From contig NC_031672.1 of NCBI RefSeq assembly GCF_001640025.1, forward strand, positions 930,001-994,000: DNA of 64,000 bases, written 5' to 3'. Under the pieces are notes generated by a model. That model made no database searches, was not told the origin of the DNA, and was given only the letters and a program-made list of their open reading frames with translations. The stretch is from Sugiyamaella lignohabitans. Taxonomy: Eukaryota; Ascomycota; Dipodascomycetes; Dipodascales; Trichomonascaceae. This document shows positions 45,429-61,149 of the stretch, piece by piece (the stretch's first letter is position 1; every line of letters begins with the position of its first letter). The translations under genes were made by a program, and so were the position numbers.

Positions 45429-46390
45429 CGAATGGCACTCTGTATCTCATGTGATGATCGATGTAATTGCGGTATAAATTATCCGAGTTATGTGCTACAG
45501 TAAAGTAAACTGGCTTTGTTTTCCGTAGTCCGATAAATATTCTTGCTCTAATAATGTTACCCGGAATTGACAGTCATACCCTAGCCCTCTACTTTCTCCA
45601 TTGGATCCATGAACCAAAATCCATGAGACCAGACTAATACTAGTTGAATGTAATCAGCTGGAGACTCTAGTTTGATAATAATTCTGTCGCTTAGAGACCA
45701 TTCCATGTGCTGATCCTGGAGTACCATCTGAGTTGGACTATCTGGAGGTATTGGTCGAGAGATGGCCCATTCTGTACATAAGGCCACATGAGTCAACCTT
45801 GGTGACTCTAGAAATATTAGTTAACTACAATTGGCTGGAGATATTGGTTTGTATATTCACCCTGGACATTTTATTCTGTGAACACACTGTGCTGTTCCCT
45901 GGATTTGCTAATATGAACGGTGGACTGGGGACCGTCGAGTGTTACCCGGTGTTGAGAGACCACCATACCGTGAATGTTCACCGCTGAGATAGTTCCTCTG
46001 TTTTTCGTTTTTTCCTTTTCGAATGTACTTATCCAAGTTTATTTTACTTGATATACCCACTATAGCAGCTTTTTTTTCCAGTACTATGACAATGTCTCCT
46101 GCTTTCAAAACTTTTAGTGTTACCCGGGAATGCATTGAATGCTCTCTCTATAGAAAATGGCATGGAATGTCGTGAGCCAGAAATAATAAAGTTTATATTG
46201 ACGAGTTTAACCACCGCTCATCGTCATAGGCATTGACAGCCTTTTTCTTTTATTATTATAACTTCGTTTGAATTCACCACAGAAAAGACATGTTCTTTTA
46301 GACTTCCTATCAGATACGACAGGAACGAGATAAGCGACAGCTGTGCAGGTGGCCGATATGCACCTGGAGCGACCTATTCTCCAAGCCAGG

Positions 46391-46618
46391 CCTGCCTCCA
46401 GCGGCGGCGGGGGCTTCGCCCCAGACCCCACTGCTGCTCTCGCTTCACTCGAGTCGGACGAGGGGGGTCAGTGCAGAATTTAAGTCTAGAGCCGGGTATT
46501 CCAGGCTTAGCCAGAGCGGTACCGAGAGAAAAAAAATAAATGGGAAGGGAACCCACACCCGACTCGAGCGAAGCGATACGAGCAGTGGAGTCTGGGGCGA
46601 AGTCCCAGCCGCCGGAGA
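46391..46618. repeat. decayed GC-rich element with insert
   Basis: Left arm 46391-46455 and right arm 46560-46618 carry several substitutions and small indels and are separated by about 100 bp of unrelated AT-rich DNA. Confidence 0.75.
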
Positions 46619-46869
46619 GCAGGTCTGGCTCAGCAACATGTTAAGGGGTCCCTGCATGAGATCTGACAGATGATCGGCGATGCGAAACGACGAACCCGAC
46701 AGCTCGTGTACAGATAAGATCTGACCACTGAGTTAGTATGCAGATCGAATCAACACTGAAATATAAATAGCAAAATGTTTTCAAGATTTTATGAGCAGCG
46801 AGAAACGTCTTTTAAGAACCGAGAAGACCGGATATAAAGCTACTGAGGAACAAGAGAGATTTCTGAATA

Positions 46870-47784
46870 ATGGAGTATGTACATTTTATTTATAGTAGTA
46901 GAGTCGACAGTGGTACTAACATGAAAACAGGACTAGTAATATCACTCTCACTCAGTTGGATACACTCCCTTCTTTCCAAAGTTTGAACTACTTTGAAAGG
47001 GCATGGGCTCGCTACTTCAGCTCGTTTGATAGCCCGCTAATTGCTACAGGACTATTACTCTTAATATCGCATGAGCTGGTATACTTTGGACGCTCCATAC
47101 CGTGGGCCATTATTGATATGATCCCATACTTCCGCAAATATAAAATCCAAGACACTAAAATACCAACTACCAAGGAATACTGAGAGTGTCTGAAATCAGT
47201 TCTACTATCTCACTTGTTTGTAGAAGCCATTCCTATTTTTGGATTTTATCCAGTTTGCGAGTATTTCAACATCAGCATTGGAGTGCCATTTCCTAGCTGG
47301 AAGGACTGGGCCATTCAGACAGCGACTTTTTTTGTTTTTAGAAGGCACTTGGCATTACTGGGGACATCGTCTTTTACACACTAAGTATCTGTATAAGAGA
47401 ATCCACAAACAGCATCACAAGTATGCCGCTCCATTTGGCTTAACGGCTGAGTATGCACATCCAGTTGAAGTAGCTTTTACTGGAACTGGTACAGTAGGCA
47501 GTCCACTACTATGGGCATATGTTTTTGGAAATTTACACTTAATTACTGTTCTTACATGGATTGTACTTCGCTTATTTCAAGCAATTGATTCCCATTCTGG
47601 ATATGAGTTCCCTTGGTCCCTGGATCATTTCTTACCAGTGTGGTCTGGTGCCGACCACCATGATGACCACCATCGCTATTTCACTGGCAACTACGCATCA
47701 TCGTTTAGATGGTGGGATTATTTCTTGGGAACAGAGACAAACTCCACTGTTAAAAAGAGACTTGAATCTAAGAAGAAGAAATAA
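46870..47784 (+). pseudogene. ERG25-like C-4 methylsterol oxidase, broken by a stop and a frameshift
   Basis: A five-base first exon (ATGGA, 46870-46874) is followed by a 56-nt intron (GTATGT donor, TACTAAC, ACAG) and then METSNITLTQLD and the ERG25 body (SPLIATGLLLLISHELVYFGRS). An in-frame TGA at 47181 falls inside the conserved KE..[10 protein letters not shown] segment. A one-base loss in the T-rich run near 47328-47341 shifts the frame before EGTWHYW. All histidine boxes are still readable after the shift: HRLLH, HKQHH, HHDDHH. Functional homologues oxidise the C-4 methyl groups of sterol intermediates in the endoplasmic reticulum. Intact splice signals and conserved motifs suggest a recent loss, probably of a second copy, or sequencing errors. 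Confidence 0.8.
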
Positions 47785-48513
47785 TCTCATTGCAGTATTA
47801 TAATTTATATACATGTATATATTGTCTATGTAACAGACCTAAGTAATAAAGTTATAATTTATCAAAATTGAAGTTGATGATCAATTTTTTTGCTAAGTAT
47901 TTCTGCCAAATATTTTGCCTGTGAATTAACATCGTGGATATATTATCTAATCTGAAACTATGTCAACGTATTTTGTACATGACGTACAGATCAACACAAT
48001 GCCGCTGCAGATACAGTTAGGATAACAATTAGCTACTCTGTATCTTGCATGTAAACGCATCAACCGCCCAACCCCTATGAAGAAACAAGAAGAACAAAGT
48101 CGCGCGTTTAGCTTAATTGGCAAAGCGACTATCTTAATAACTACTACTGCCCAAATAATATCTGACTAGCTGAGCTTCACAGATGTCAAAACGACGCTCG
48201 GCTATGCCACAAGTCACCTCACGAGAAGCTTGGGACACCTGAGATTCCAGGGGGTACTAGTACTAAGGCCTTAATATATCATAAAATATAAGTAAACCTA
48301 ATTGCGATATATATGGTCATTATCAGTTATTTCTTTATATCTGATGACTTTTAATTTACTAGATTCAACAAGCCTGACAGCTGCGGCTGGCCCTAATTAA
48401 GCTATGCACGAAGAAGCACCTCTTTAGAAACTAAATAATATCGATATTAATCCACACTACAGATCTGAAATATCTGCATACAATGGGGTTAGAAATTAAC
48501 CTTCATCCCACTC

Positions 48514-48567
48514 TGGCGAACCGCGAGGGACCACGGGGTCTGGGGCAAAGCCGCAGACCGCCTGAGG
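48514..48567. repeat. decayed GC-rich arm, duplicated with gene A
   Basis: A degraded reverse arm (CACGGGGTCTGGGGCAAAGC) in the flank of A1; its counterpart lies at 53445-53506 in the flank of A2. Confidence 0.65.
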
Positions 48568-48670
48568 CTTCTTATGTATCTAACTAGCTCAGATCTATTA
48601 AACAACTCAATTCACGTTCCTCGCCATTCCTCAGAAATTAATGACCCACCAATATACTGATTCTGAAAAC

Positions 48671-48671
<1 letters not shown>

Positions 48672-48728
<57 letters not shown>
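48672..48728. repeat. AAT trinucleotide microsatellite
   Basis: About 18 to 19 AAT units just after the stop codon of A1. The A2 flank has no such run, so it expanded after the duplication. Confidence 0.9.
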
Positions 48729-48738
48729 CCAACACTCT

Positions 48739-50976
48739 TTAATAAAAATATCTTCTTCTCTTTTTTCGACGCTTTTCCTTCGGGCAGTTCTCAAATTCCT
48801 TAAACAGCACTTTCAACTTTTTCCAGTCAACTGAAAAGTCAACATCTTTACTAACTTCTGTAAAACTATACTGGAAATTCGCGAGAACAACATCATTACC
48901 AGAACGAACCATAATACCATTCTTTTTACCATACTTATGGAATACGCCCAGTTCATGTATTTGTTGGTAGTTCTCTTTGACCGTTTTATACAAAAGTTGC
49001 AGATCTCGACGAACTTTGACCTCTTCTTCAACTGAGATATCTGGACGCTTGAGCTCACTTGCCAATCTTTCCATAAAATCGATGATAGGAATGTATTCAT
49101 TCATACTTTCGGTTACAATGATATTGATTTCGCCTTCTTTTAATACCTCGTAAATATGGGGAATAATACTTCCTTGAACACTGGCTAGCTTCTCAAATGC
49201 CAATTTTTCGGCAGAGAAAAGATGTTCCACACACTTCGGGTAACATCTAAGCGTGGCAAAAGTTCCATTCACTGTGGCGAACTCCTGAATAATAGGCATA
49301 TAACTTGTCATCACTTTAATCATCAATTGATCCCAATCAGCGTGGAATTGAAAGCGCCCTTGATCAGACTTTGGTCTAACCACCCGCTCCAGCCTTTGCA
49401 AATTCAAGTTGATTGCGGGCAACCGCTCATCTTCAGCGTGCCTGTCAGCTGTAAAGAACTCAGTGTGACGAATGATGTTAACCGGCGAAAATTCCATAGC
49501 ATCGGGGGTTGGAAGAATTGAAAACGGATTCGGCTCCATCTTTATTTCCATTGCAATGGACTTACCTCGTTTGACGGGATCTTTTTCGTTTGACCAGTAT
49601 GCTAAATAAGCAGCTATCGCGTGTCTGACAGTTGGTTCCGTAGAGTCGTAATTAAGGCGGAATATATCGTAATTCAGCCGACCATCCTTGTATCCAGTGA
49701 TATCAATGAAGAATGTTTCATAAAAACTGGATACTATGTAATGAATAAGATTGGATTTTATTAGATGGAAGCGAAGCTCATCCATTACCAAATACCAATG
49801 TGGACTACCATAGCATAAATTTAAATCGGAGCTAGACTGAAAATAAATTAATCCCACTATTGTCTGATCCTGATCATCCAATGACTCTATGTTCTTCATT
49901 GAGTGGATGGAATCAATCAAGATTACATCAACGAAAAAATATTCAGCCCCTTTGTCGATATGCCGATATTTGTCGACCTGGAACGACACATCATAACCGA
50001 GTTTGACATTACTACCTTCAGCAGATAACAATGGTGTTAAAACCAAGTTGCAGATGGCCAAAAATAAACATGGGAGTAATTCATCTGTGTCATAAGATTT
50101 GAACTCTGACGGAACTGAGGAGTCTCTCTCGTCCAGGCCATTTTCGGCATAATCTGAGCTAAGATCTTCCTCGTAGATTTCTTCACTGACTCTGTTCAAC
50201 CGAGAATTAAAACTATCAATAAACAAGCTCTTAAATTCATCTCTGCTTACTTCCCTTGCATTATATCCGTAGCCACCAACCGTCTCAATTCGAACCAAAC
50301 CATTACGGTGCCAATTGTGAATAACATCTTCTAGAGGTAGCTGAAGATAGACTTTGACTGCATGTGAAGACCAGCGACCACCCTTCCAGTCTTGTCCAGT
50401 ACATAGTAATTTCTCTGGGTTGAGGAATCGGTCAAAGTCTTTGTATGGGCCCTGATTTATGAACTTTTGATAGTCCGAAGCAGCGCGACTCTCAAGCAGA
50501 TATCGCTCACCCATTCTCGCATACTTTACATCATAGACATGCTTAGCAGTAGCCCACTGAGTGTGAAAGTCACGTCTTAATTGCTGTAAAACTGGGTTAC
50601 TGTCAGTGATTTGACTTATAACCTTTTTTTTACCCTTCTCCTGTTCCTCCTCCCATACCGCTACAGGGTCAATACAATTATCCAATTGGGGATAAATTGA
50701 GCCGTCAATGTATTCTTCGGTCGATGGCTTCCATGTATAACGGGTAAATTGCAGAGTACGGAGATCAGACTTGAGTTCGGCCTGGATGCGCCCAGATTGA
50801 GCCAAAAGACTGTCATCATCAGCTTTTACTTTGTAAAGCTGCAAATCATATTGATACTCAAGCTGGAAGGGAGTCAAGAAGGCCTCGCTGAGAATCGGCA
50901 CAACTTTGTACTCACCGTCAACACAATCATATATTCGGCGTGTAACCGGGGGACGAGAGGGGTTTTTTTCAGTCAT
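48739..50976 (-). CDS. Gene A1: degenerate nuclease-like plus pseudokinase protein
   Basis: 745 residues from the ATG at 50976, the start shared with A2; the frame runs 31 codons further upstream in this copy only. Residues about 330-470 recall the restriction-endonuclease-like domain that precedes kinases in fungal proteins. A VDVILID strand, then IVGLIYFQSSSDL where an active enzyme would have E-x-K, and SSFYETFFID..PTVRHAIAAYLAYW in place of the usual later strands are visible. The C-terminal third recalls FunK1-like kinases (FEKLASVQGSIIPHIYEV; INIIVTESM), but the catalytic loop reads HKYGKKN (680-686) without its Asp and the DFG site reads ANF (699-701). It ends in a Lys/Arg-rich tail. 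No signal peptide. Likely a binding protein, not an enzyme. The family call is by pattern only. Divergent from gene B1. Confidence 0.7.
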   Translation of the reverse strand: MTEKNPSRPPVTRRIYDCVDGEYKVVPILSEAFLTPFQLEYQYDLQLYKVKADDDSLLAQSGRIQAELKSDLRTLQFTRYTWKPSTEEYIDGSIYPQLDNCIDPVAVWEEEQEKGKKKVISQITDSNPVLQQLRRDFHTQWATAKHVYDVKYARMGERYLLESRAASDYQKFINQGPYKDFDRFLNPEKLLCTGQDWKGGRWSSHAVKVYLQLPLEDVIHNWHRNGLVRIETVGGYGYNAREVSRDEFKSLFIDSFNSRLNRVSEEIYEEDLSSDYAENGLDERDSSVPSEFKSYDTDELLPCLFLAICNLVLTPLLSAEGSNVKLGYDVSFQVDKYRHIDKGAEYFFVDVILIDSIHSMKNIESLDDQDQTIVGLIYFQSSSDLNLCYGSPHWYLVMDELRFHLIKSNLIHYIVSSFYETFFIDITGYKDGRLNYDIFRLNYDSTEPTVRHAIAAYLAYWSNEKDPVKRGKSIAMEIKMEPNPFSILPTPDAMEFSPVNIIRHTEFFTADRHAEDERLPAINLNLQRLERVVRPKSDQGRFQFHADWDQLMIKVMTSYMPIIQEFATVNGTFATLRCYPKCVEHLFSAEKLAFEKLASVQGSIIPHIYEVLKEGEINIIVTESMNEYIPIIDFMERLASELKRPDISVEEEVKVRRDLQLLYKTVKENYQQIHELGVFHKYGKKNGIMVRSGNDVVLANFQYSFTEVSKDVDFSVDWKKLKVLFKEFENCPKEKRRKKRRRYFY

Positions 50977-51652
50977 TGACTTGTTAAAATGTTCATTAGT
51001 GTGAAATCCCTGTTCTTTTATGGATGCTCCTGATATACATAACATGCGGCGATGGGTGGTATTATGCATATAACTTTCAAAATGAGGTACTGCTCGCTTG
51101 ACAGGTCAATTTTGCCTTGTCGCGCACCTTTAATCTATATTCCTTTTCGTTCCTGGATCATGCAATGTTTCTTTTAATAAACCGAAGGTTTGAGCATTGA
51201 ACATTGATCAGGAACTAATGACCGTAGACCGAGTTAAACATATACCAATGAGTACGCTTCCAAAATGAGTTACTTATAGCCATAGCCTCTAAATAGGAAA
51301 TAAGCTCGTCTCGAACCCACCAAACAAATATTAAGTGTAGCACAGAGAATGCTATCATAGAGAAGATTGTGAGGCCCAAGCGCCTGTTATTCTTAAGCGG
51401 GTCATAGCTCTTTAAACGTTCAAAAGCAAAGTGCTTCAAGGGCTACTAGGGGGCCTTGGAGGTTAGACGGCTAGCCACGACTTAATAATGTCGCATGATC
51501 TAGCGACGTGAACATGCAAGTATCACATCCCTGCATACCCCGGAAAGTTACATGCACAACAATGTTTTTCTCGTCTCTCTGCTGCTACAAGGAAGTAGTT
51601 ACCTGCAACACTCTTGTCTTCTACATACAAGCTGATATTCCCTCTCGTGACG
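50977..51652. promoter_or_regulatory. divergent promoter of A1 and B1
   Basis: 676 bp. The part next to A1 is similar to the sequence before A2. A frame of about 74 codons (51215-51439, minus) contains a hydrophobic stretch but has no ATG. No clear regulatory site recognised. Confidence 0.4.
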
Positions 51653-53070
51653 ATGAGTAGCAGTGAATCTCGTAAGTAGAGACAGTACAGCAAACTGGAG
51701 GAGTAATCTAACAGAGCTCAGCAGATATCATTGCTAACCTGCCCCCGGTAACAACCAGTTACATCATAGGCCTACTCGGCGAGTCAATTAAACCACCTAC
51801 ACCTGAAGAAGGCACTGAAATTTCCGCACAGAGCAGCATCATCAATCGCTTTTACGAGTACAATGGAAATATCATTTTCAAAAACAACAAAGAATTCTTC
51901 GATATGTTCCCAATTAAACAAATAAGGGAACTAATCAGTAGTCGTAAACCGTCAAGATTCCACAAGCTGAGAAGTGGCCACAATTTGTCAAACGATACGT
52001 CACTCCCTAAAAGCTTCAGGAGCGAATCAGAGGTGGAGGAATGGATCCAAGCCATCCTGAGAAACCTGATAGATGCGATGATTAATCCGCTCTTGGATGA
52101 TGAATATGACCCTGTCAAGAAACTTCTAAAAGATGAACTCAAAACCGTGATTTCTGAATTTCAAGAGAGATTTAAAAAAAGCCTTCGACATTTACAAAAC
52201 GCGATCAAAAGACTCCCGAGTTCAAAAGTGAAAGTACAGCTTAAGCTGGAAAAACACCAAGGCATTCTTAAATATATGCTGGAAAGATTTGCAATGAATT
52301 ATAAAGTGCTGCTAACTAGAGCATCCACCACCATCATAGGCACTACCACAGATTTCGACAATGTAGCAAAGCTACTCAAAAAAACTGTCAGAAACATGAA
52401 AGTCATCACTAAAGCATTTTTTCAGGACGCCATTCAAAGCTATCAAAGTAATAGACGGGTTAGTGGCCGCCGTCCCTTAGTCAAACAGACAAAAAACATG
52501 ATCAAGAAATTAGTGGATCTACTCAGCCATCTCAAAGATATACCCGCTCAACTAGTTCGTTGCGATTCCAACGGACTGTTTGATATCAAGAGACAGAACG
52601 CCGATCTCCGAGCTACCTTAGAGCCGGCACCCACTAATCGTAAACCCAAGGCTGATATTTATATCAGCAGGGGCGAAACTGTCACGGTTGTGGAGTGTAA
52701 AAGAAGATCGGCCCTTAGCCTAAAAGCAGTGTTTAAGGAAAACACAGCAAACTCCCGTCACCTACTCTCCCAGTTATCCAAGTACATGTATGGATACTGT
52801 AGTGGTCAGACAGTCCTGACTACATTGGGAGAATGGGGTTTTATAAGCTACGACGTAGCGCAAGACTATAACGTTACCATCAACGCACATTTTTCAAAAC
52901 TGCAAAAGGCAGGTGTGCATTCAGTGCGATGGAAATTAATCGCGTATATATTCGCGATGATGAAGGAAGACCCTGATATGATACGGAGAATTCGTAAGAT
53001 GCACCGTGCTGGATGCCGTCAATATAAGATGACAGGCTTGACCAACATTTTCGACGTGGAAATGACATGA
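51653..53070 (+). CDS. Gene B1: PD-(D/E)XK nuclease-like protein, one intron
   Basis: Exons 51653-51671 (ATGAGTAGCAGTGAATCTC) and 51722-53070, joined across a 50-nt intron (GTAAGT; ATCTAAC; acceptor CAGCAG, where either AG keeps the frame). Product 455 residues. Residues 75-290 are basic and helical (LLDDEYDPVKKLLKDELKTVI; long Lys/Arg-rich helices). The C-terminal part has an intact restriction-endonuclease core: KADIYI with D318, then VVECKRR with E331 and K333 (D-x12-E-x-K), then LSQLSKYMYGYCSGQTVLTT and WGFISYD, a layout typical of fungal nuclease domains. No signal peptide. It probably acts on nucleic acid inside the cell; activity is inferred. Divergent partner of A1. Confidence 0.72.
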
Positions 53071-53646
53071 CTCCAATATGAAATCCTTCTCTAAAAAGGT
53101 AAAACTTAATGCATTGTTCCGCCTATAATTGAAATGTCCAAATTATATCTATTCAACCATCTATGGACTGAGATTTCGTAATCAACCCATGACGAGCAAC
53201 CAGAGTAAATATCACAGCATCTGAGTCTCCCCGATCCATCAGCCAGCTTACCTGTTTGACATCGAGCTCATCCTTCTAATGGTCTTAAGTTATACTCACG
53301 TAGTACCTGCATTACAGCCTCAAATACTGAAATCTTTGTCACGTGACATAATTTCATCCTCTAATATATTAATCCAAACTATAAAGCTGATTATATACCA
53401 ATGATTTTAAAATGGACATTAAAACTTCCGTTCATCCTACTCTGGACTCGAGCGAAGCGCGAGGGTCCACGGGGTATGGGGCAAAGCCACAGAGCCCGCC
53501 GGAGAGAAGCTTCCTATCTATCTAACTAGCTCAGATCTATTGACAAACTCCGAATAAGAAACTCAATTCACGTTCGCCGCCATTCCTCAGAAATTAATGA
53601 TCCACCACAATATACTGATTCTTAAAAACAATCATACTCAACGCTC
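53071..53646. other. B1 3' flank and A2 3' flank
   Basis: No gene. TCACGTGA (53339-53346) recurs at 57051-57058 after the B2 relic in a similar context. The A2 flank with a decayed repeat arm begins at about 53425. Confidence 0.55.
53445..53506. repeat. decayed GC-rich arm, duplicated with gene A
   Basis: Keeps CTCGAGCGAAGCGCGAG and CACGGGGTATGGGGC. It occupies the same place relative to A2 as 48514-48567 does to A1, so it predates the duplication. Confidence 0.7.
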
Positions 53647-55884
53647 TTAATAAAAATATCTTCTTCTCTTTTTTCGACGCTTTTCCTTCGGGCAGTTCTC
53701 AAATTCCTTAAACAGCACTTTCAACTTTTTCCAGTCAACTGAAAAGTCAACATCTTTACTAACTTCTGTAAAACTATACTGGAAATTCGCGAGAACAACA
53801 TCATTACCAGAACGAACCATAATACCATTCTTTTTACCATACTTATGGAATACGCCCAGTTCATGTATTTGTTGGTAGTTCTCTTTGACCGTTTTATACA
53901 AAAGTTGCAGATCTCGACGAACTTTGACCTCTTCTTCAACTGAGATATCTGGACGCTTGAGCTCACTTGCCAATCTTTCCATAAAATCGATGATAGGAAT
54001 GTATTCATTCATACTTTCGGTTACAATGATATTGATTTCGCCTTCTTTTAATACCTCGTAAATATGGGGAATAATACTTCCTTGAACACTGGCTAGCTTC
54101 TCAAATGCCAATTTTTCGGCAGAGAAAAGATGTTCCACACACTTCGGGTAACATCTAAGCGTGGCAAAAGTTCCATTCACTGTGGCGAACTCCTGAATAA
54201 TAGGCAAATAACTTTTCATCACTTTGATCATCAATTGATCCCAATCAGCGGGGAATTGAAAGCGCCCTTGATCAGGCTTTGGTCTAACCACACGCTCCAG
54301 CCTTTGCAAATTCAAGTTGATTGGAGGCAGTCGTCTCTCCTTATCGTGTTCATCAGGTATAAAGAACTCAGTGTGACGAGTGATATTAACCAGGGAAAAC
54401 TCCATGGCATTGGCGGCTGGAAGAATTGAATACGGATTCGGCTCCATCTTTATTTCCATTGCAATGGACTTACCTCGTTTGACGGGATCTTTTTCGTTTG
54501 ACCAGTATGCTAAATAAGCAGCTATCGCGTGTCTGACAGTTGGTTCCGTAGAGTCGTAATTAAGGCGGAATATATCGTAATTCAGCCGACCATCCTTGTA
54601 TCCAGTGATATCAATGAAGAATGTTTCATAAAAACTGGATACTATGTAATGAATAAGATTGGATTTTATTAGATGGAAGCGAAGCTCATCCATTACCAAA
54701 TACCAATGTGGACTACCATAGCATAAATTTAAATCGGAGCTAGACTGAAAATAAATTAATCCCACTATTGTCTGATCCTGATCATCCAATGACTCTATGT
54801 TCTTCATTGAGTGGATGGAATCAATCAAGATTACATCAACGAAAAAATATTCAGCCCCTTTGTCGATATGCCGATATTTGTCGACCTGGAACGACACATC
54901 ATAACCGAGTTTGACATTACTACCTTCAGCAGATAACAATGGTGTTAAAACCAAGTTGCAGATGGCCAAAAATAAACATGGGAGTAATTCATCTGTGTCA
55001 TAAGATTTGAACTCTGACGGAACTGAGGAGTCTCTCTCGTCCAGGCCATTTTCGGCATAATCTGAGCTAAGATCTTCCTCGTAGATTTCTTCACTGACTC
55101 TGTTCAACCGAGAATTAAAACTATCAATAAACAAGCTCTTAAATTCATCTCTGCTTACTTCCCTTGCATTATATCCGTAGCCACCAACCGTCTCAATTCG
55201 AACCAAACCATTACGGTGCCAATTGTGAATAACATCTTCTAGAGGTAGCTGAAGATAGACTTTGACTGCATGTGAAGACCAGCGACCACCCTTCCAGTCT
55301 TGTCCAGTACATAGTAATTTCTCTGGGTTGAGGAATCGGTCAAAGTCTTTGTATGGGCCCTGATTTATGAACTTTTGATAGTCCGAAGCAGCGCGACTCT
55401 CAAGCAGATATCGCTCACCCATTCTCGCATACTTTACATCATAGACATGCTTAGCAGTAGCCCACTGAGTGTGAAAGTCACGTCTTAATTGCTGTAAAAC
55501 TGGGTTACTGTCAGTGATTTGACTTATAACCTTTTTTTTACCCTTCTCCTGTTCCTCCTCCCATACCGCTACAGGGTCAATACAATTATCCAATTGGGGA
55601 TAAATTGAGCCGTCAATGTATTCTTCGGTCGATGGCTTCCATGTATAACGGGTAAATTGCAGAGTACGGAGATCAGACTTGAGTTCGGCCTGGATGCGCC
55701 CAGATTGAGCCAAAAGACTGTCATCATCAGCTTTTACTTTGTAAAGCTGCAAATCATATTGATACTCAAGCTGGAAGGGAGTCAAGAAGGCCTCGCTGAG
55801 AATCGGCACATCTTTGTACTCACCGTCAACACAATCATATATTCGGCGTGTAACCGGGGGACGAGAGGGATTTTTGTCAGTCAT
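53647..55884 (-). CDS. Gene A2: second intact copy of the pseudokinase-like protein
   Basis: 745 residues, same length as A1 and the same domain picture (residues about 330-470 degenerate nuclease-like; 680-686 HKYGKKN; 699-701 ANF). By eye the two proteins differ at E3D, V25D and 18 positions between residues 485 and 560, where charge and proline content change (for example ADRHAEDE in A1, PDEHDKER in A2). The remainder is identical. At DNA level the differing window is 54207-54431 here and 49299-49523 in A1. Its former partner B2 is broken (56180-56815). That A2 stays open while B2 has decayed suggests that A is kept for its own sake or protects against B. Confidence 0.7.
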   Translation of the reverse strand: MTDKNPSRPPVTRRIYDCVDGEYKDVPILSEAFLTPFQLEYQYDLQLYKVKADDDSLLAQSGRIQAELKSDLRTLQFTRYTWKPSTEEYIDGSIYPQLDNCIDPVAVWEEEQEKGKKKVISQITDSNPVLQQLRRDFHTQWATAKHVYDVKYARMGERYLLESRAASDYQKFINQGPYKDFDRFLNPEKLLCTGQDWKGGRWSSHAVKVYLQLPLEDVIHNWHRNGLVRIETVGGYGYNAREVSRDEFKSLFIDSFNSRLNRVSEEIYEEDLSSDYAENGLDERDSSVPSEFKSYDTDELLPCLFLAICNLVLTPLLSAEGSNVKLGYDVSFQVDKYRHIDKGAEYFFVDVILIDSIHSMKNIESLDDQDQTIVGLIYFQSSSDLNLCYGSPHWYLVMDELRFHLIKSNLIHYIVSSFYETFFIDITGYKDGRLNYDIFRLNYDSTEPTVRHAIAAYLAYWSNEKDPVKRGKSIAMEIKMEPNPYSILPAANAMEFSLVNITRHTEFFIPDEHDKERRLPPINLNLQRLERVVRPKPDQGRFQFPADWDQLMIKVMKSYLPIIQEFATVNGTFATLRCYPKCVEHLFSAEKLAFEKLASVQGSIIPHIYEVLKEGEINIIVTESMNEYIPIIDFMERLASELKRPDISVEEEVKVRRDLQLLYKTVKENYQQIHELGVFHKYGKKNGIMVRSGNDVVLANFQYSFTEVSKDVDFSVDWKKLKVLFKEFENCPKEKRRKKRRRYFY

Positions 55885-56179
55885 TAGATTGTTGCAAAGT
55901 TCATAATTGTGAAGTACTAACTGTTGTTTATGGGCACAGGGCGAGATGCGAGTAGTGCATTAAACTTTCAATGAAATTGCTACATGGCAGGTAAATACTA
56001 TGATGTCCCACAACTTTATAATTTATTTTTATGCCGTTCTGTTTCTGAGTCTTGTCTATTACATTCATAACAAGTATTATGTTTGAACTTTAAACATCAG
56101 AACTATAGACCATAGACTAGACTAGTCAACAAACGTAATTTTTAACCAGCAAAATCAGTATACAAGTATAGATACTTAC

Positions 56180-56815
56180 TCACCTGCTCCAGGTTACGAT
56201 CCAAAACTACTCAGAGAGCCAGTTAAACGAGCAGCCGCTCAAAGCGAACCCGAAGTTTCACACGCAGGAGCAAGAAACCTTCTCATATCAGTACAGAAAA
56301 CACCATTGTCACCAAAATGAAGAATTCTTTACTATGTTCCCCCTGAAAAAAAGAAAACTAACCAAAGTCAGTGATCCGTCAAAATTCCACAGGGCTCATC
56401 GAAAAATGGGCCAGATTGTTACTCATGATACCACGCTACTTCAGACCCTCATGAGCTAATCAGATGTGGAGCAATGAGTCCAAGCCATATTGACAAACCT
56501 TATATGCTAATGAACTCACTTTTGGATGATAAATATGAAGCTGACAAGAAACTACTACAAGCTGGACTCAACATTGTGATCGATAAATTTCAAGATGAAT
56601 GCAACACAATCGAGTCACTACCGACACCACTAAAATTAGAAATAGAATGTCTTAAATAAGCACAAAGATAATACACTGCTCCTGAGACACTTTGATGTGG
56701 AATATGAAGTGCCTCTGACTGTTGCGTCAGGATGATTTCAATATTGTACATCTACTAAAAACACTGTCAGAGAAATGAGAAAAGCCTCTTAAACATTTTT
56801 GGAGTTACAATTAGA
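56180..56815 (+). pseudogene. Gene B2 relic, nuclease domain deleted
   Basis: The forward strand shows decayed similarity to B1: an LLREPVK.. stretch opposite LLGESIK.., MFPLKKRKLTK opposite MFPIKQIREL, and LLDDKYEADKKLLQAGLNIV opposite LLDDEYDPVKKLLKDELKTV. Several stops and shifts interrupt it. Similarity ends near the DNA that codes AKLLKKTVRNM in B1. The following roughly 630 bp, which hold the PD-(D/E)XK core in B1, are absent, and the shared downstream flank resumes near 56995. Confidence 0.75.
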
Positions 56816-57500
56816 AGGAAAAGATAGTTTATCAATTTACTCGTTTTCGGTCTATAACGGAAAACATGAGAAAAATTGGTTTTAGAATTATTGGTAAGTC
56901 CACCTTTAATAATTCTCGGAGAGCCTCTGATGTTTGAATTTAGAATGAGATTTCGTAAGAACAATCCATCGAATTTATCCTTCCAATGTTCCTAAGAAAT
57001 ACTCACGAAGTACCTGCCTGCGCTTAAGCCCTGAATATTGAAATCTCCCATCACGTGACAAATAATCTGCATCCCCCTTAACACCCCAGATATTATCCCG
57101 GTATAAAATCGAATTGGACATCCAGACTATATCAGATGTCTGATAAATAGGTGTCTATCTCGTTTGTGTGTGAGGTTGTGTATCTACAACCACTTTTTGC
57201 TACCAAATCTGGCGAGAATAATTTCCTCATACTTAAATAGCGAGTATTAAACAATTCACTTAACCGTAGATCCGATTGACAAAGACAGGTGATTATGAAA
57301 TTTCCTTCCTGAAAATGGAGCCAAACCACAAACATTAATCAACTACGACCAACTCGAGAAATCAGCCGGGAGTCACATCCTGCACATTTCAGAGCATGAG
57401 CTTCCATGGCCTAGAAAAATGAATTGAGCAAACAACCGATAAGCGGAAACTTGGCCATTACCGGTTCACACGAATCTTCTCCGCCAACGGTCCAAACAAT

Positions 57501-57552
57501 CTCCTGCGAAGCAGGAGCACGGGGTCTGGGGCAGAGCCCCAGCCGCCGGAGG
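57501..57552. repeat. GC-rich element, single reverse arm
   Basis: Well-preserved reverse arm in the CMR1 upstream region, the first intact copy right of the A/B island. Confidence 0.9.
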
Positions 57553-57740
57553 CAGTGTCCGTTATAGCGATACACGGAGGCAGCACCCCCGACCCCAGGG
57601 TCGAACCCTGCAGGAACCCCGGGAGAAGTGATATGCACGAGTTAATTGAAAAACGCGTGAGGAGCAAGTGGCACGAGTAAGGTTCGCGATTGACCGTAGA
57701 GTGGGTGAAAAGTGAAGAGAAGAGAAAACAAGGAGAGAAA

Positions 57741-59351
57741 ATGGCGGCCATGAGCGAGCTGGAGAAACAGCGGCTGGCGAATATCGCCAGGAACCAGCAG
57801 TTGTTGAAAGAGCTGGAACTGGCGGGGGCTGGAGATCAGATGTTTTCGGACGTGCGACAGAAGTCGGCGAAGACCGCCAGAAGCAGCAGCAACAGCAGCA
57901 GCAGGACCAGAAGGGCTCCTCGAGTTAAACAGGAGGTGGATCTGGGGCCACGACGAAAGTCTCGGCGTTTGGAAGGCAAAAAAGCCGAGTTCGATATCGA
58001 ACGAGAGACGGCCGAAAGATTGCTGGTTATCGAGAAACAGGCTGCTCAGGAAGACAAGGCTCGAAAAGAGGGCGAACTCAAACTGGCTGATGTGATCAAG
58101 AATGGCGAGTGGGACCAGGCTCTGGGACTGCTTTCGTCTTTGGGAAAAGTGTCTCAGGGTGATTATTTCGAGAAGATCAAGAAAGAAGAAGAACAAGAAG
58201 AAAATGATGGTGGTACACGAGACAGCGACAATAGCGGTTTAAGTTCAGGTAAAAAGAAAGAATTGGTATCTGCTCGCAAAGAACTGTCGAACCTGTCTCT
58301 TCATACGAAAATCAGTCCAAATGATATCAAAGTCACGTCGGAACGGATATTCAGTGTGGCATTCCATCCCTCAGAAACCAAGAGAATTGTTCTTGCGGGT
58401 GATAAAATGGGCGAGTTGGGTTTATGGGATATCGATTCTACCAATAAAATCAAAGATGAAGGTGATTATGAATATGAAACACCCAATATTCTATCGTTTA
58501 AGGTACACACACGGGCCATTGCCACGATTCTGATGCCTCAATTTGCACCGGACAAGGCATATACAGCATCATATGACGGATCAGTACGATGTTTAGACCT
58601 GGGCTCAGGAACTTCTACAGAAGCATTTGTATATGATAGTGATCCCAGAAACCCGGTAGGAGTGAGCGACTGTGCAATGCCAGATGCCAACACGCTATAT
58701 TATACGACATTAGAAGGAGAGTTTGGGATTCATGATCTTCGAGAGAACCAACGCAAACCTAAATCACAGTTGTTGAGATTACATGATAAGAAAATTGGTG
58801 GGTTCTCGTTTAATCCGAATGCTATTCATCAAATAGCCACTGGATCGTTAGACAGGACGTTAAAAGTATGGGATCTTCGAGCCACGTCCGTAATTGCCGA
58901 GTCCGAGGATAATGAAAAGGCACCTCACATGTATGGCGAGTATCAGAGCCGACTGAGTATCAGTGCGACCGACTGGAATTCAGCAGGACAGATTGTGTGT
59001 AACGGGTACGACGATACCATTAACGTGTTTGATCTTTCAACGAGCAAGTCATGGACCAAGTCCGAAACTCACGACATTGTGCCCTCAGTTCGACTCAAAC
59101 ACAACTGTCAAACCGGACGCTGGGTGTCGATTCTGAAATCCCGCTGGCAACCACGACCTGCCGACTCTGTCCAGAAATTCGTCATCGCCAACATGAAACG
59201 GTACCTCGACATTTACTCTGCCGACGGCCAGCAACTGGCCCATCTCGGCCACGAACTCATGTCCGCCGTCCCCGCCGTCGTCCAGTTCCACCCCTCCCAA
59301 AACTGGCTCGTCGGCGGCTCCGCCAGCGGCAAACTGTACTTATGGGAATGA
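57741..59351 (+). CDS. CMR1: Cmr1/WDR76-type WD40 damage-response protein
   Basis: 536 residues from the ATG at 57741; a second ATG three codons on (57750) gives MSELEKQRL and is also plausible, and the frame before 57741 starts with TTG. The N-terminal about 210 residues are basic and coiled (SELEKQRLANIARNQQLLKEL; RRKSRRLEG). The WD40 propeller follows: VAFHPSETKRIVLAGDKMGELGLWDI, YTASYDGSVRCLDL, IATGSLDRTLKVWDLR, and a final VQFHPSQNWLVGGSASGKLYLWE. The order basic tail then seven blades is that of Cmr1, which binds UV-damaged DNA and gathers in nuclear protein-quality foci. In S. cerevisiae it is next to YDL157C. Confidence 0.92.
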   Translation: MAAMSELEKQRLANIARNQQLLKELELAGAGDQMFSDVRQKSAKTARSSSNSSSRTRRAPRVKQEVDLGPRRKSRRLEGKKAEFDIERETAERLLVIEKQAAQEDKARKEGELKLADVIKNGEWDQALGLLSSLGKVSQGDYFEKIKKEEEQEENDGGTRDSDNSGLSSGKKKELVSARKELSNLSLHTKISPNDIKVTSERIFSVAFHPSETKRIVLAGDKMGELGLWDIDSTNKIKDEGDYEYETPNILSFKVHTRAIATILMPQFAPDKAYTASYDGSVRCLDLGSGTSTEAFVYDSDPRNPVGVSDCAMPDANTLYYTTLEGEFGIHDLRENQRKPKSQLLRLHDKKIGGFSFNPNAIHQIATGSLDRTLKVWDLRATSVIAESEDNEKAPHMYGEYQSRLSISATDWNSAGQIVCNGYDDTINVFDLSTSKSWTKSETHDIVPSVRLKHNCQTGRWVSILKSRWQPRPADSVQKFVIANMKRYLDIYSADGQQLAHLGHELMSAVPAVVQFHPSQNWLVGGSASGKLYLWE

Positions 59352-59398
59352 ATGAACTTTGACCACTTTTTCTGGGGCTCTCTGGAGGGGGGTCAATG

Positions 59399-59618
59399 CC
59401 TCCGGCGGCTGGGGCTCCGCCCCAGACCCCGTGGCTCCTGCTTCGCAGGAGATGGCCTGGACCGTCGACGGAGGGGTTCTTGCCTCCGGCGGCTGGGGCT
59501 CCGCCCCAGACCCCGTAGCTCCTGCTTCGCAGGAGTTTGTCGGGACCGTCGACGAAAACGACTCGAGCGAAGCGAGAGGAGCAGCGGGGTCTGGGGCGGA
59601 GCCCCAGCTGCCGGAGGC
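59399..59618. repeat. three GC-rich arms (forward, forward, reverse)
   Basis: Forward arms 59399-59451 and 59483-59535, then reverse arm 59559-59618. The second and third form a complete unit; the first is an extra copy. Starts 47 bp after the CMR1 stop. Confidence 0.9.
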
Positions 59619-60170
59619 AAACCTACCCCCCGGGAACCCCCGGGAAGCAGGGGCCCCCTGCCAGAACCGGTCCGTGATGCACCGAGGTGACTTGGCTTCG
59701 TGGCATCGGATAAACTTTAAAACGCCCCGCAGGGAAGGGTGAGGGATCTGCATGCCCTGTGGACTTCGAGGGAGGAGCGTGGGAGGTGTGTCGCGTGACC
59801 CTGATAGGAGTGCAGAGGTTGTTCGTGGCTGTGGGGGACGGGCAGGGAGGTTGCCGGGACCGTTGACGAAAACGACTCGAGCGAAGCGAGAGGAGCAGCG
59901 GGGTCTGGGGCGGAGCCCCAGCCGCCGGAGGCAAACTTGCCCCCAGAAACCGCCCGGGACCCCCTGCCGGAACCGGTCCGTGATGCACTGGGGTGACTTG
60001 GCTTCGTGGCATCGGATAAACTCTAAGCGTCCCGCAGGGAGGGGAGCGAAATCTGCATGCGCTGTGGGCTTCGAGGGAGGGGTGTGGTTGGTGTGTCGTG
60101 TGATCCAGGTAGGAATGCAGCAGGGGTTGTTTGTAGCTGTGAGGGAGGGGCAGGGAGAAGAGAGCGGGGA
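59560..60170. repeat. tandem duplication of about 0.3 kb
   Basis: Two diverged copies, each with one reverse GC-rich arm followed by AACCGGTCCGTGATGCA and GACTTGGCTTCGTGGCATCG. The first marker lies at 59665 and 59971, so the period is about 306 bp with small indels. Confidence 0.8.
59873..59931. repeat. GC-rich element, reverse arm in the second duplicated unit
   Basis: Reverse arm nearly identical to 59559-59618, carried along by the 0.3-kb duplication. Confidence 0.9.
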
Positions 60171-61149
60171 CGGAACGGCCGGTATCGAGATGTAGCTCGA
60201 TGGGGGGTGACGTTGGTCTGCGTGAACGATGCAGTAATCGTCGCTTTCGGTGTAGGGGCGTATGTTATATGCGACGCGCGACGCATGACAAGTATTTTAA
60301 GTTTATATACAAAAAAAAATGATCTCATAAAAGGGCGTACAAGGTTAATAAAAAATGTGTGGTATTGAGACTCCTGAACTCGATCGACTTTGATTGGCGC
60401 TTTTTCAGTCGGTATCAACCATCTGCCTTTGTTCTGTCAGTGGTAATCTGATAAGTCTAATGATAAGAGAGGTGAAAAGAGAGGTGAAAAGAGAGGGCTG
60501 AAAGTCTGCTGTATGCTGGCTCATCTGAAAAATCCACATCGGCAGTTACTGACATCCAGCCTTACTGGTGGGCATATGTCACTCTTATTCTAAATTTAGC
60601 CTTCATAGCGCCAGATCTTTGCGGTGATAGACCGCAGGATGTGCCTGAAACAGGCAAATGTGTTGCATGTTGAAAATATCCACACTGCTTCATCGTTGAA
60701 CGCACGTGGACCGATCCAGGTTTAGTCTCTCAAGCAGGCTGCTAACGGATATAGCCCAACATGGATTGGACGGGTGATATCGCTTACGCTTAAGCCAGGG
60801 TAGCACGACCAAAGTAGCACGACCCTGACGTGTATGTACGATTCCAGTCGGTGATAGCGCGATCAAGCAAGGGTGAAATTTTAATTTTTTCGGGCCGTGT
60901 CTGCTTCTTATTCGATTTCAGGCCTTATCTGGTTTTATATAAAATATTTTGAACTTAGGCTAACCAAAAACTGATAAGGTTCGGGGATATTGGTATGTAT
61001 TGGGATGTAGTACGAGGTGCTACTGGTGCTACTGGTGCTACTGGTGCTACTGTTGTTGAGGCTGCTTCTTCTGGGTGCTACTGCCTTTCTCGAGATTGTT
61101 TATTAACGTGCTAGTTCTTGTTTAATTCTGTCTGTTATTTTTGGTTGGT

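Follow-up and report, generated by a model that had tools for sequence, protein, structure and literature searches.

Introduction

Among the systems described so far, the closest to the one treated here are the SPOK killers of Podospora and Fusarium, in which, according to the excerpts on which all PMC-numbered citations in this text rest, a PD-(D/E)XK domain with a QxxxY motif kills, with HsdR as its best HHpred hit, and a kinase domain confers resistance (PMC6660238); the killing by SPOK1 targets and damages DNA, in E. coli as in S. cerevisiae (PMC9972908), a Spok2 allele gives resistance without killing (PMC6660238, PMC12693581), and resistance requires the catalytic aspartate of the kinase (PMC6660238). 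In a 64-kb stretch of the genome of Sugiyamaella lignohabitans (C1:930001-994000, within 15.93 Mb in four contigs, a number in line with the four chromosomes given for S. lignohabitans and S. novakii, PMC12232646; hereafter the window, to which all coordinates without a contig name refer), there are two neighboring genes, A and B, which resemble this arrangement in that B appears to carry a PD-(D/E)XK domain with QxxxY and a resemblance to HsdR, A appears to carry a kinase-like part, and there are several copies per genome (PMC6660238, PMC9972908, PMC12693581). With about as much confidence as doubt, we propose that A and B could form a two-gene poison-antidote (killer/resistance) unit, split and SPOK-like, which has been decaying to antidote-only copies.

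The differences are also considerable. SPOK joins nuclease and kinase in one polypeptide, whereas here they fall to two divergently transcribed genes; the SPOK cluster C-x3-C-x13-C-x5-H-x7-H that precedes the kinase is absent in all ten A proteins, nine of which have a lone C-x3-C; and, in the excerpted description, the SPOK3 motif spans 219-240, so that its D-E spacing differs from that of B (PMC6660238). The A/B pair, with two proteins and an apparently dead kinase, is not a member of SPOK, from which it is set apart by the descriptions of SPOK and not by sequence comparison.

Some CifB toxins are PD-(D/E)XK nucleases; to our knowledge, the Cif pairs are bacterial and their antidote is not kinase-like, nor do we know of any nuclease or kinase likeness in the wtf genes of fission yeast. 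As excerpted, CifA/CifB of Wolbachia consists, like A and B, of two genes, of which cifB kills while cifA counteracts it (PMC11342252). The wtf genes form a multicopy poison-antidote family whose members recombine (PMC13160552) and some of which are predicted to be antidote-only (PMC12693581); in wtf, however, a single gene yields both toxin and antidote (PMC10721834). No description of a split, divergent nuclease/dead-kinase pair was found in the open-licence literature searched.

A Family of Divergent Gene Pairs

The genome search, which scores the best candidates only and therefore gives lower bounds, found at least ten open loci of A, of which C1 has two and C3 eight, nine of them at full length and one (the C3:2164 copy) start-shortened to 705 amino acids (aa), and at least four open copies of B, namely B1 of the window and three near-identical copies on C3 whose identity to B1 is 55%. 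Each of the remaining six A loci has the relic of a B in the corresponding divergent position, so that B, whether open or relic, is found there at 10/10 open A loci; all 11 B matches of the genome search adjoin an A, and wherever B is open (four loci) the two genes are separate. This recurrence of the divergent arrangement at ten loci is far beyond chance, although the loci have a single unit as their ancestor and do not count as independent. As a side observation, broken fragments of A occur in both orientations at C3:585745-587699 and C3:2120837-2122596, with no adjoining B in the B genome search.

The first-pass annotation had described A1(-)/B1(+) followed by A2(-) and a B2 relic(+), and the frames and alignments in the window confirm this order; the 4908 bp that it gave between the A genes is reproduced as the distance between their stop ends (48739 in A1, 53647 in A2), and the tandem duplication that it saw is correct for the window, although it represents only a small part (two of ten loci) of the family. 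The features are as follows:

48739-50976, minus strand: gene A1, with 745 aa when counted from the start codon common to the family, candidate antidote with a pseudokinase tail (open frame and alignment)
48742-49479, minus strand: putative kinase-like tail of A1 (PADLOC PD-T4-6 in 9/10 copies, NCBIfam MAD6 kinase at E 0.008, motif positions)
49838-50290, minus strand: divergent core of A, with only 75-81% identity at the DNA level to the unit at C3:2180-2185
50977-51652, no strand: divergent promoter region, common to A1 and B1 (from position 51041 or so onward, 88-98% identity of the C1 unit with the C3:2180-2185 unit)
51653-51671, plus strand: exon 1 of B1, 19 nucleotides (nt), with ATG and GTAAGT donor in 4/4 open B copies
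51672-51721, plus strand: intron of B1, 50 nt, with CTAAC and CAG acceptor (predicted from sequence only)
51722-53070, plus strand: exon 2 of B1, candidate nuclease poison, giving a 455-aa protein together with exon 1
52654-52785, plus strand: putative nuclease motif of B1, with codons starting at 52654 (D318), 52693 (E331), 52699 (K333), 52771 (Q357) and 52783 (Y361)
53647-55884, minus strand: gene A2, 745 aa (open frame and alignment)
about 56172-56851, plus strand: B2 relic, N-terminal remains with in-frame stops and a large deletion
46309-57201, no strand: segment with a C3 counterpart, whose outer parts 46309-51023 and 53623-57201 match C3:2331918-2337966, where there is no B1-like gene

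If A1 is read from the first upstream ATG (51069), it is a protein of 776 aa (48739-51069, minus strand); in the alignment, the start codon in common with the paralogues is the one at 50976. By the counts made in windows of the alignment, the differences between A1 and A2 are confined to columns 1-60 and 481-600, with none in columns 61-480 or from 601 on. B1 is probably a two-exon gene with a predicted 5′ intron, given that the donor, CTAAC and acceptor are found by sequence comparison in all four open B copies, and that the only within-gene length difference among the three C3 copies, of 1 nt, falls inside the intron. The deletion in the B2 relic, with its junction at about 56851, takes out everything after approximately residue 260, including the nuclease motif. 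Neither an Rfam scan of 46000-60500 nor an ARAGORN scan of the window for transfer RNA gave a match.

Another explanation for the linkage, which we judge rather unlikely, is that A would be a yeast gene that has been amplified and has a role of its own, and B a linked, fast-evolving and decaying neighbor with no functional tie to it. In its favor, all A/B pairs descend from one unit, so that what the ten loci show is linkage and not independent co-occurrence, and this co-occurrence is known from one genome alone.

Loss of B and Retention of A

The tally of ten open A against four open B, in two lineages, and six B relics is among the grounds for the proposal: the poison-antidote reading is favored because B has been lost more often than A, with both partners on one divergent promoter. 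In a unit of this kind, B as a PD-(D/E)XK nuclease would damage DNA and be the poison, and A, a large protein with a pseudokinase tail expressed from the same divergent promoter, would neutralize it, most likely through binding and not phosphorylation, since A lacks the kinase residues. The units would have spread via segmental and tandem duplication, B would have been lost through deletion, stop codons, or crossover between neighboring A copies, and A would have been retained as protection against copies of B elsewhere in the genome or the population. The nuclease activity, the toxicity, the neutralization and the drive, at meiosis or in vegetative cells, are what we infer from these sequences.

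One and the same deletion, with identical alignment edges, is found in the B relics at A2, A_2334 and A_587; it spans 632 columns, or 602 bases in the relic of A_591, starts at about residue 260 and takes the nuclease motif with it, and since the edges coincide it indicates a single event before these loci split. The A2 and A_587 relics are 90.8% alike, and A is open at all three loci. If A had been neutral since the deletion, 4.7 stops would be expected in A2 and 4.3 in A_587, with a probability of 0.012-0.013 for each of remaining open, in an estimate that counts substitutions only and assigns half the relic distance to each branch. In all 45 pairs of A the ratio of nonsynonymous to synonymous change (dN/dS) is 0.32-0.63, and among the pairs without a live B neutrality is rejected in four of the five tested (A_591/A_587, p 0.0087; A_2164/A_2186, A_2164/A_587 and A_2186/A2, each 1e-4 or less). 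A is thus under constraint even where B has decayed.

This constraint in the absence of B also suits the alternative of an amplified gene with an unrelated neighbor. That explanation is, on the other hand, less comfortable with the two diverged B lineages, both of which keep an open frame and the motif, at a dN/dS of about 0.5, with a core of A that diverges along with B, and with a common promoter region that stays 88-98% alike.

Along the unit, the comparison of C1 with C3:2180-2185 gives, beside that promoter region, identities of 83-98% in most of A, 75-81% in the A core and 62-72% in B, with a sharp step near 51800. The A core (alignment columns 255-420, which were picked after inspecting the data) has a dN of 0.223 vs 0.074 in the rest of the protein for A1/A_2154 (p 1.8e-11), an increase of about threefold, and the increase in synonymous change there is smaller (four pairs, with p of 0.081, 0.081, 0.027 and 0.021). 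Such a pattern would suit a surface of A that must match B; relaxed constraint is a possible alternative for the divergence of the core.

The Nature of B

The residues D318-x12-E331-x-K333 named in the first-pass annotation hold with their exact numbers in the spliced 455-aa protein of B1, which also carries Q357xxxY361, and the same D-x12-E-x-K and QxxxY are retained in both open B lineages. Four PD-(D/E)XK families point, each weakly, to this same place. Firstly, the Pfam model HSDR_N_2 matches a C3 copy of B with an expectation value (E) of 7.9e-4 over the last 181 residues and 0.008 over the exon-2 protein of 455 residues, neither of which reaches the curated cut-off; the same model has no match at E <= 10 against the whole genome, which shows the weakness of this similarity. 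Secondly, when the nuclease parts of the two B lineages are combined into a profile and searched against the PDB, the Holliday-junction resolvase 1ob8 ranks first (E 0.15), in an alignment where D, E and K are in register with a spacing equal to that of B, and we take the aligned residues of 1ob8 to be its catalytic ones. Finally, over the motif stretch there are matches to YraN (NCBIfam, E 0.09), presumably a member of the PD-(D/E)XK superfamily, and to PDDEXK_15 (E 0.11).

Reversed sequences were used as controls, five against PADLOC (three A tails and two B nuclease parts) and two against Pfam: the reversed B nuclease parts gave 0/2 matches in PADLOC and one unrelated match (E 0.094) among the two sequences in Pfam. 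The single-sequence AlphaFold model of B1 exon 2 is unusable (predicted local distance difference test, pLDDT, 36.8). The motif and the four weak matches support reading B as a PD-(D/E)XK-like nuclease, while no single match proves the fold; this reading persuades because the four nuclease families agree on the position of the motif, and in these terms the nuclease-like B of the first-pass annotation stands.

The Nature of A

The ten A tails were scanned against PADLOC and Pfam. Three PADLOC models of PD-T4-6, which we take to be a kinase, match nine, eight and six of the ten tails (best E 6.4e-4), the NCBIfam protein kinase MAD6 matches the A1 tail at E 0.008, and an NCBIfam aminotransferase matches it at 0.028. 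Reversed A tails gave 0/3 matches in PADLOC, and no Pfam kinase was matched in any of the ten tails. The motif positions, assigned by eye from the alignment, point to the replacement in A1 of the kinase lysine by R577 (codon 49246-49248), of the catalytic Asp by Y682 (48931-48933), and of the Asp of DFG by N700 (48877-48879). Across the family the lysine position is Arg (TLRC, or TIRC in three C3 copies), the HRD position reads HKY in nine of the ten copies and HDY in A_2159, and the DFG position reads NFQ in all ten. AlphaFold on the A1 tail alone gave an unusable model (pLDDT 34.7). A kinase-like tail without catalytic residues is thus weakly supported, and to this extent the catalytically dead kinase of the first-pass annotation is borne out. 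A basic run at the C-terminal end of most A copies may serve as a nuclear signal.

Defense systems often employ nuclease effectors, and the likeness of the A tail to the phage-defense kinases PD-T4-6 and MAD6, together with a promoter that is common to A and B and conserved, would agree with a defense pair, in which foreign elements, of DNA or RNA, would be attacked by B as the nuclease effector, with A as a regulator or sensor restraining it until infection. The pair may indeed be a selfish or a defense one, as was first suggested. We nevertheless consider defense unlikely, as six of the ten A loci have no working B, which would be odd for an effector and its regulator, and as the libraries that gave the matches hold prokaryotic systems, so that they argue for a kinase fold and not for defense.

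Other claims about A found no support. A nuclease-shaped domain had been proposed in it, but the profiles of A and B show no homology and the middle region gave 0 Pfam matches in four copies, no domain being recognized N-terminal of the tail. The idea that A and B were halves of one duplicated fusion gene was dropped, given the same absence of homology between their profiles. The FunK1 (PF17667)/Crinkler-like proteins, to which a link had been suggested, show that the joining of nuclease and kinase is a widely spread architecture, as excerpted (PMC12693581), but neither A1, A2 nor the ten A tails match PF17667, although the genome holds genes of this family, and A gave no alignment of note with a PF17667 kinase stretch of its own genome. 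As regards those genes themselves, stretches of PF17667 (fungal-type kinase) lie at C1:2676189, C1:4154409, C2:2879764 and C1:3221039 (E < 1e-26), and weaker matches elsewhere in the genome may be other kinases.

Crossover and the Spread of the Units

The locus at C3:2331918-2337966 contains one A (A_2334) and a B relic, flanked by sequence that corresponds to the two sides of the tandem pair on C1. Among the sites that distinguish A1 from A2, A_2334 is A1-like at 97/99 as far as C3:2335050 and A2-like at 258/266 from C3:2335082 on, which fits one crossover: A_2334 is an open A1/A2 hybrid, and B1 would have been lost in its formation. The reverse direction, in which a unit would have been gained by the same crossover, is possible. 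More tentatively than the general proposal, and with rather more doubt than confidence, we also envisage a fuller picture, of a new killer family of budding yeast, in which a split nuclease poison would be paired with a dead-kinase antidote acting as a binding decoy, and crossover between A copies would excise the poison and leave self-protecting loci.

Copies at several sites on two contigs, with a nuclease-like B, might also suggest a mobile element in which B would be a transposase of restriction-nuclease type and A an accessory protein. This we regard as highly improbable. In the junctions and flanks read, which do not include the far ends of every locus, there is no sign of terminal inverted repeats or target-site duplications; the ends of the unit differ among copies; the C1/C3 copy carries along a hydroxylase-like gene; and on C3 there are tandem and inverted 5.56-kb copies with 98-99% identity. 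Segmental duplication would explain the spread of the units better than transposition.

The copy of the hydroxylase-like gene in the window (47118-47781; the family name was given by eye) has a stop and a frame break, and there is an open relative at C3:2332724-2333389. There is also a G+C-rich, potentially self-folding repeat of about 62 bp, with its core at 59872-59935 and further copies at 46402-46457, 46559-46614 and many other positions, which gave 115 blastn matches at E <= 1e-3 (56 on the plus strand) in 194 kb of genome, window included; it may represent a miniature element or else a terminator of hairpin type.

Points That Weigh Against a Poison and Its Antidote

Against the poison-antidote reading there is, in the first place, the weakness of the family matches, all of which are below curated cut-offs where such exist. 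B1 itself has no match to Pfam HSDR_N_2; when the profile of the whole of B is used in the PDB search, keratin (E 0.49) outranks the resolvase (0.59); and B1 matches unrelated families at a like level, Sec8_N at E 0.0018 and Plethodontid PRF at E 0.014, as well as AbiTi (0.0064) and PDC-M23B (0.0057), the Sec8_N and IMD matches being located on the helical part of B. As for A, the best NCBIfam match of the whole A1 is a cyclopropane synthase (0.0034), JetA2 of PADLOC matches four of the ten tails at 0.016, and the protein lacks the catalytic Asp that resistance needs in SPOK, as excerpted (PMC6660238).

The evolutionary evidence has its own difficulties. Neutrality is not rejected for the pair A2/A_2334 (p 0.22), and gene conversion from live copies may keep the frames of A open, A1 and A2 being free of differences in columns 61-480 and from 601 on. 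In the A core, columns 255-420 give dN/dS values under 1 (0.57-0.69 in four pairs), and positive selection on it was set aside as an argument, as values above 1 appear in five of nine pairs (maximum 1.88) with a smallest p against 1 of 0.17, in a narrower window chosen post hoc; reduced gene conversion in B could alone explain the divergence of B.

Lastly, no relative outside this genome appeared in the protein and viral-contig searches. Nothing was found at E <= 1e-3 with the A1 protein (with words drawn from the first 500 residues, so that the tail lay outside the coverage) or with the 388-aa first-ATG frame of B1, nothing at E <= 10 in the protein search with the two-sequence alignment of B, and no relative in the scans of viral contigs with the A alignment and with the B alignment.

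Significance

If the poison-antidote reading is true, SPOK-type nuclease killers would be extended to a budding yeast, and it would follow that poison and antidote can be separate proteins, with resistance possible without kinase chemistry. A single genome would then contain intact, poison-deleted and recombined loci as a natural series, in which the decay of a selfish element would be directly testable in laboratory yeast.

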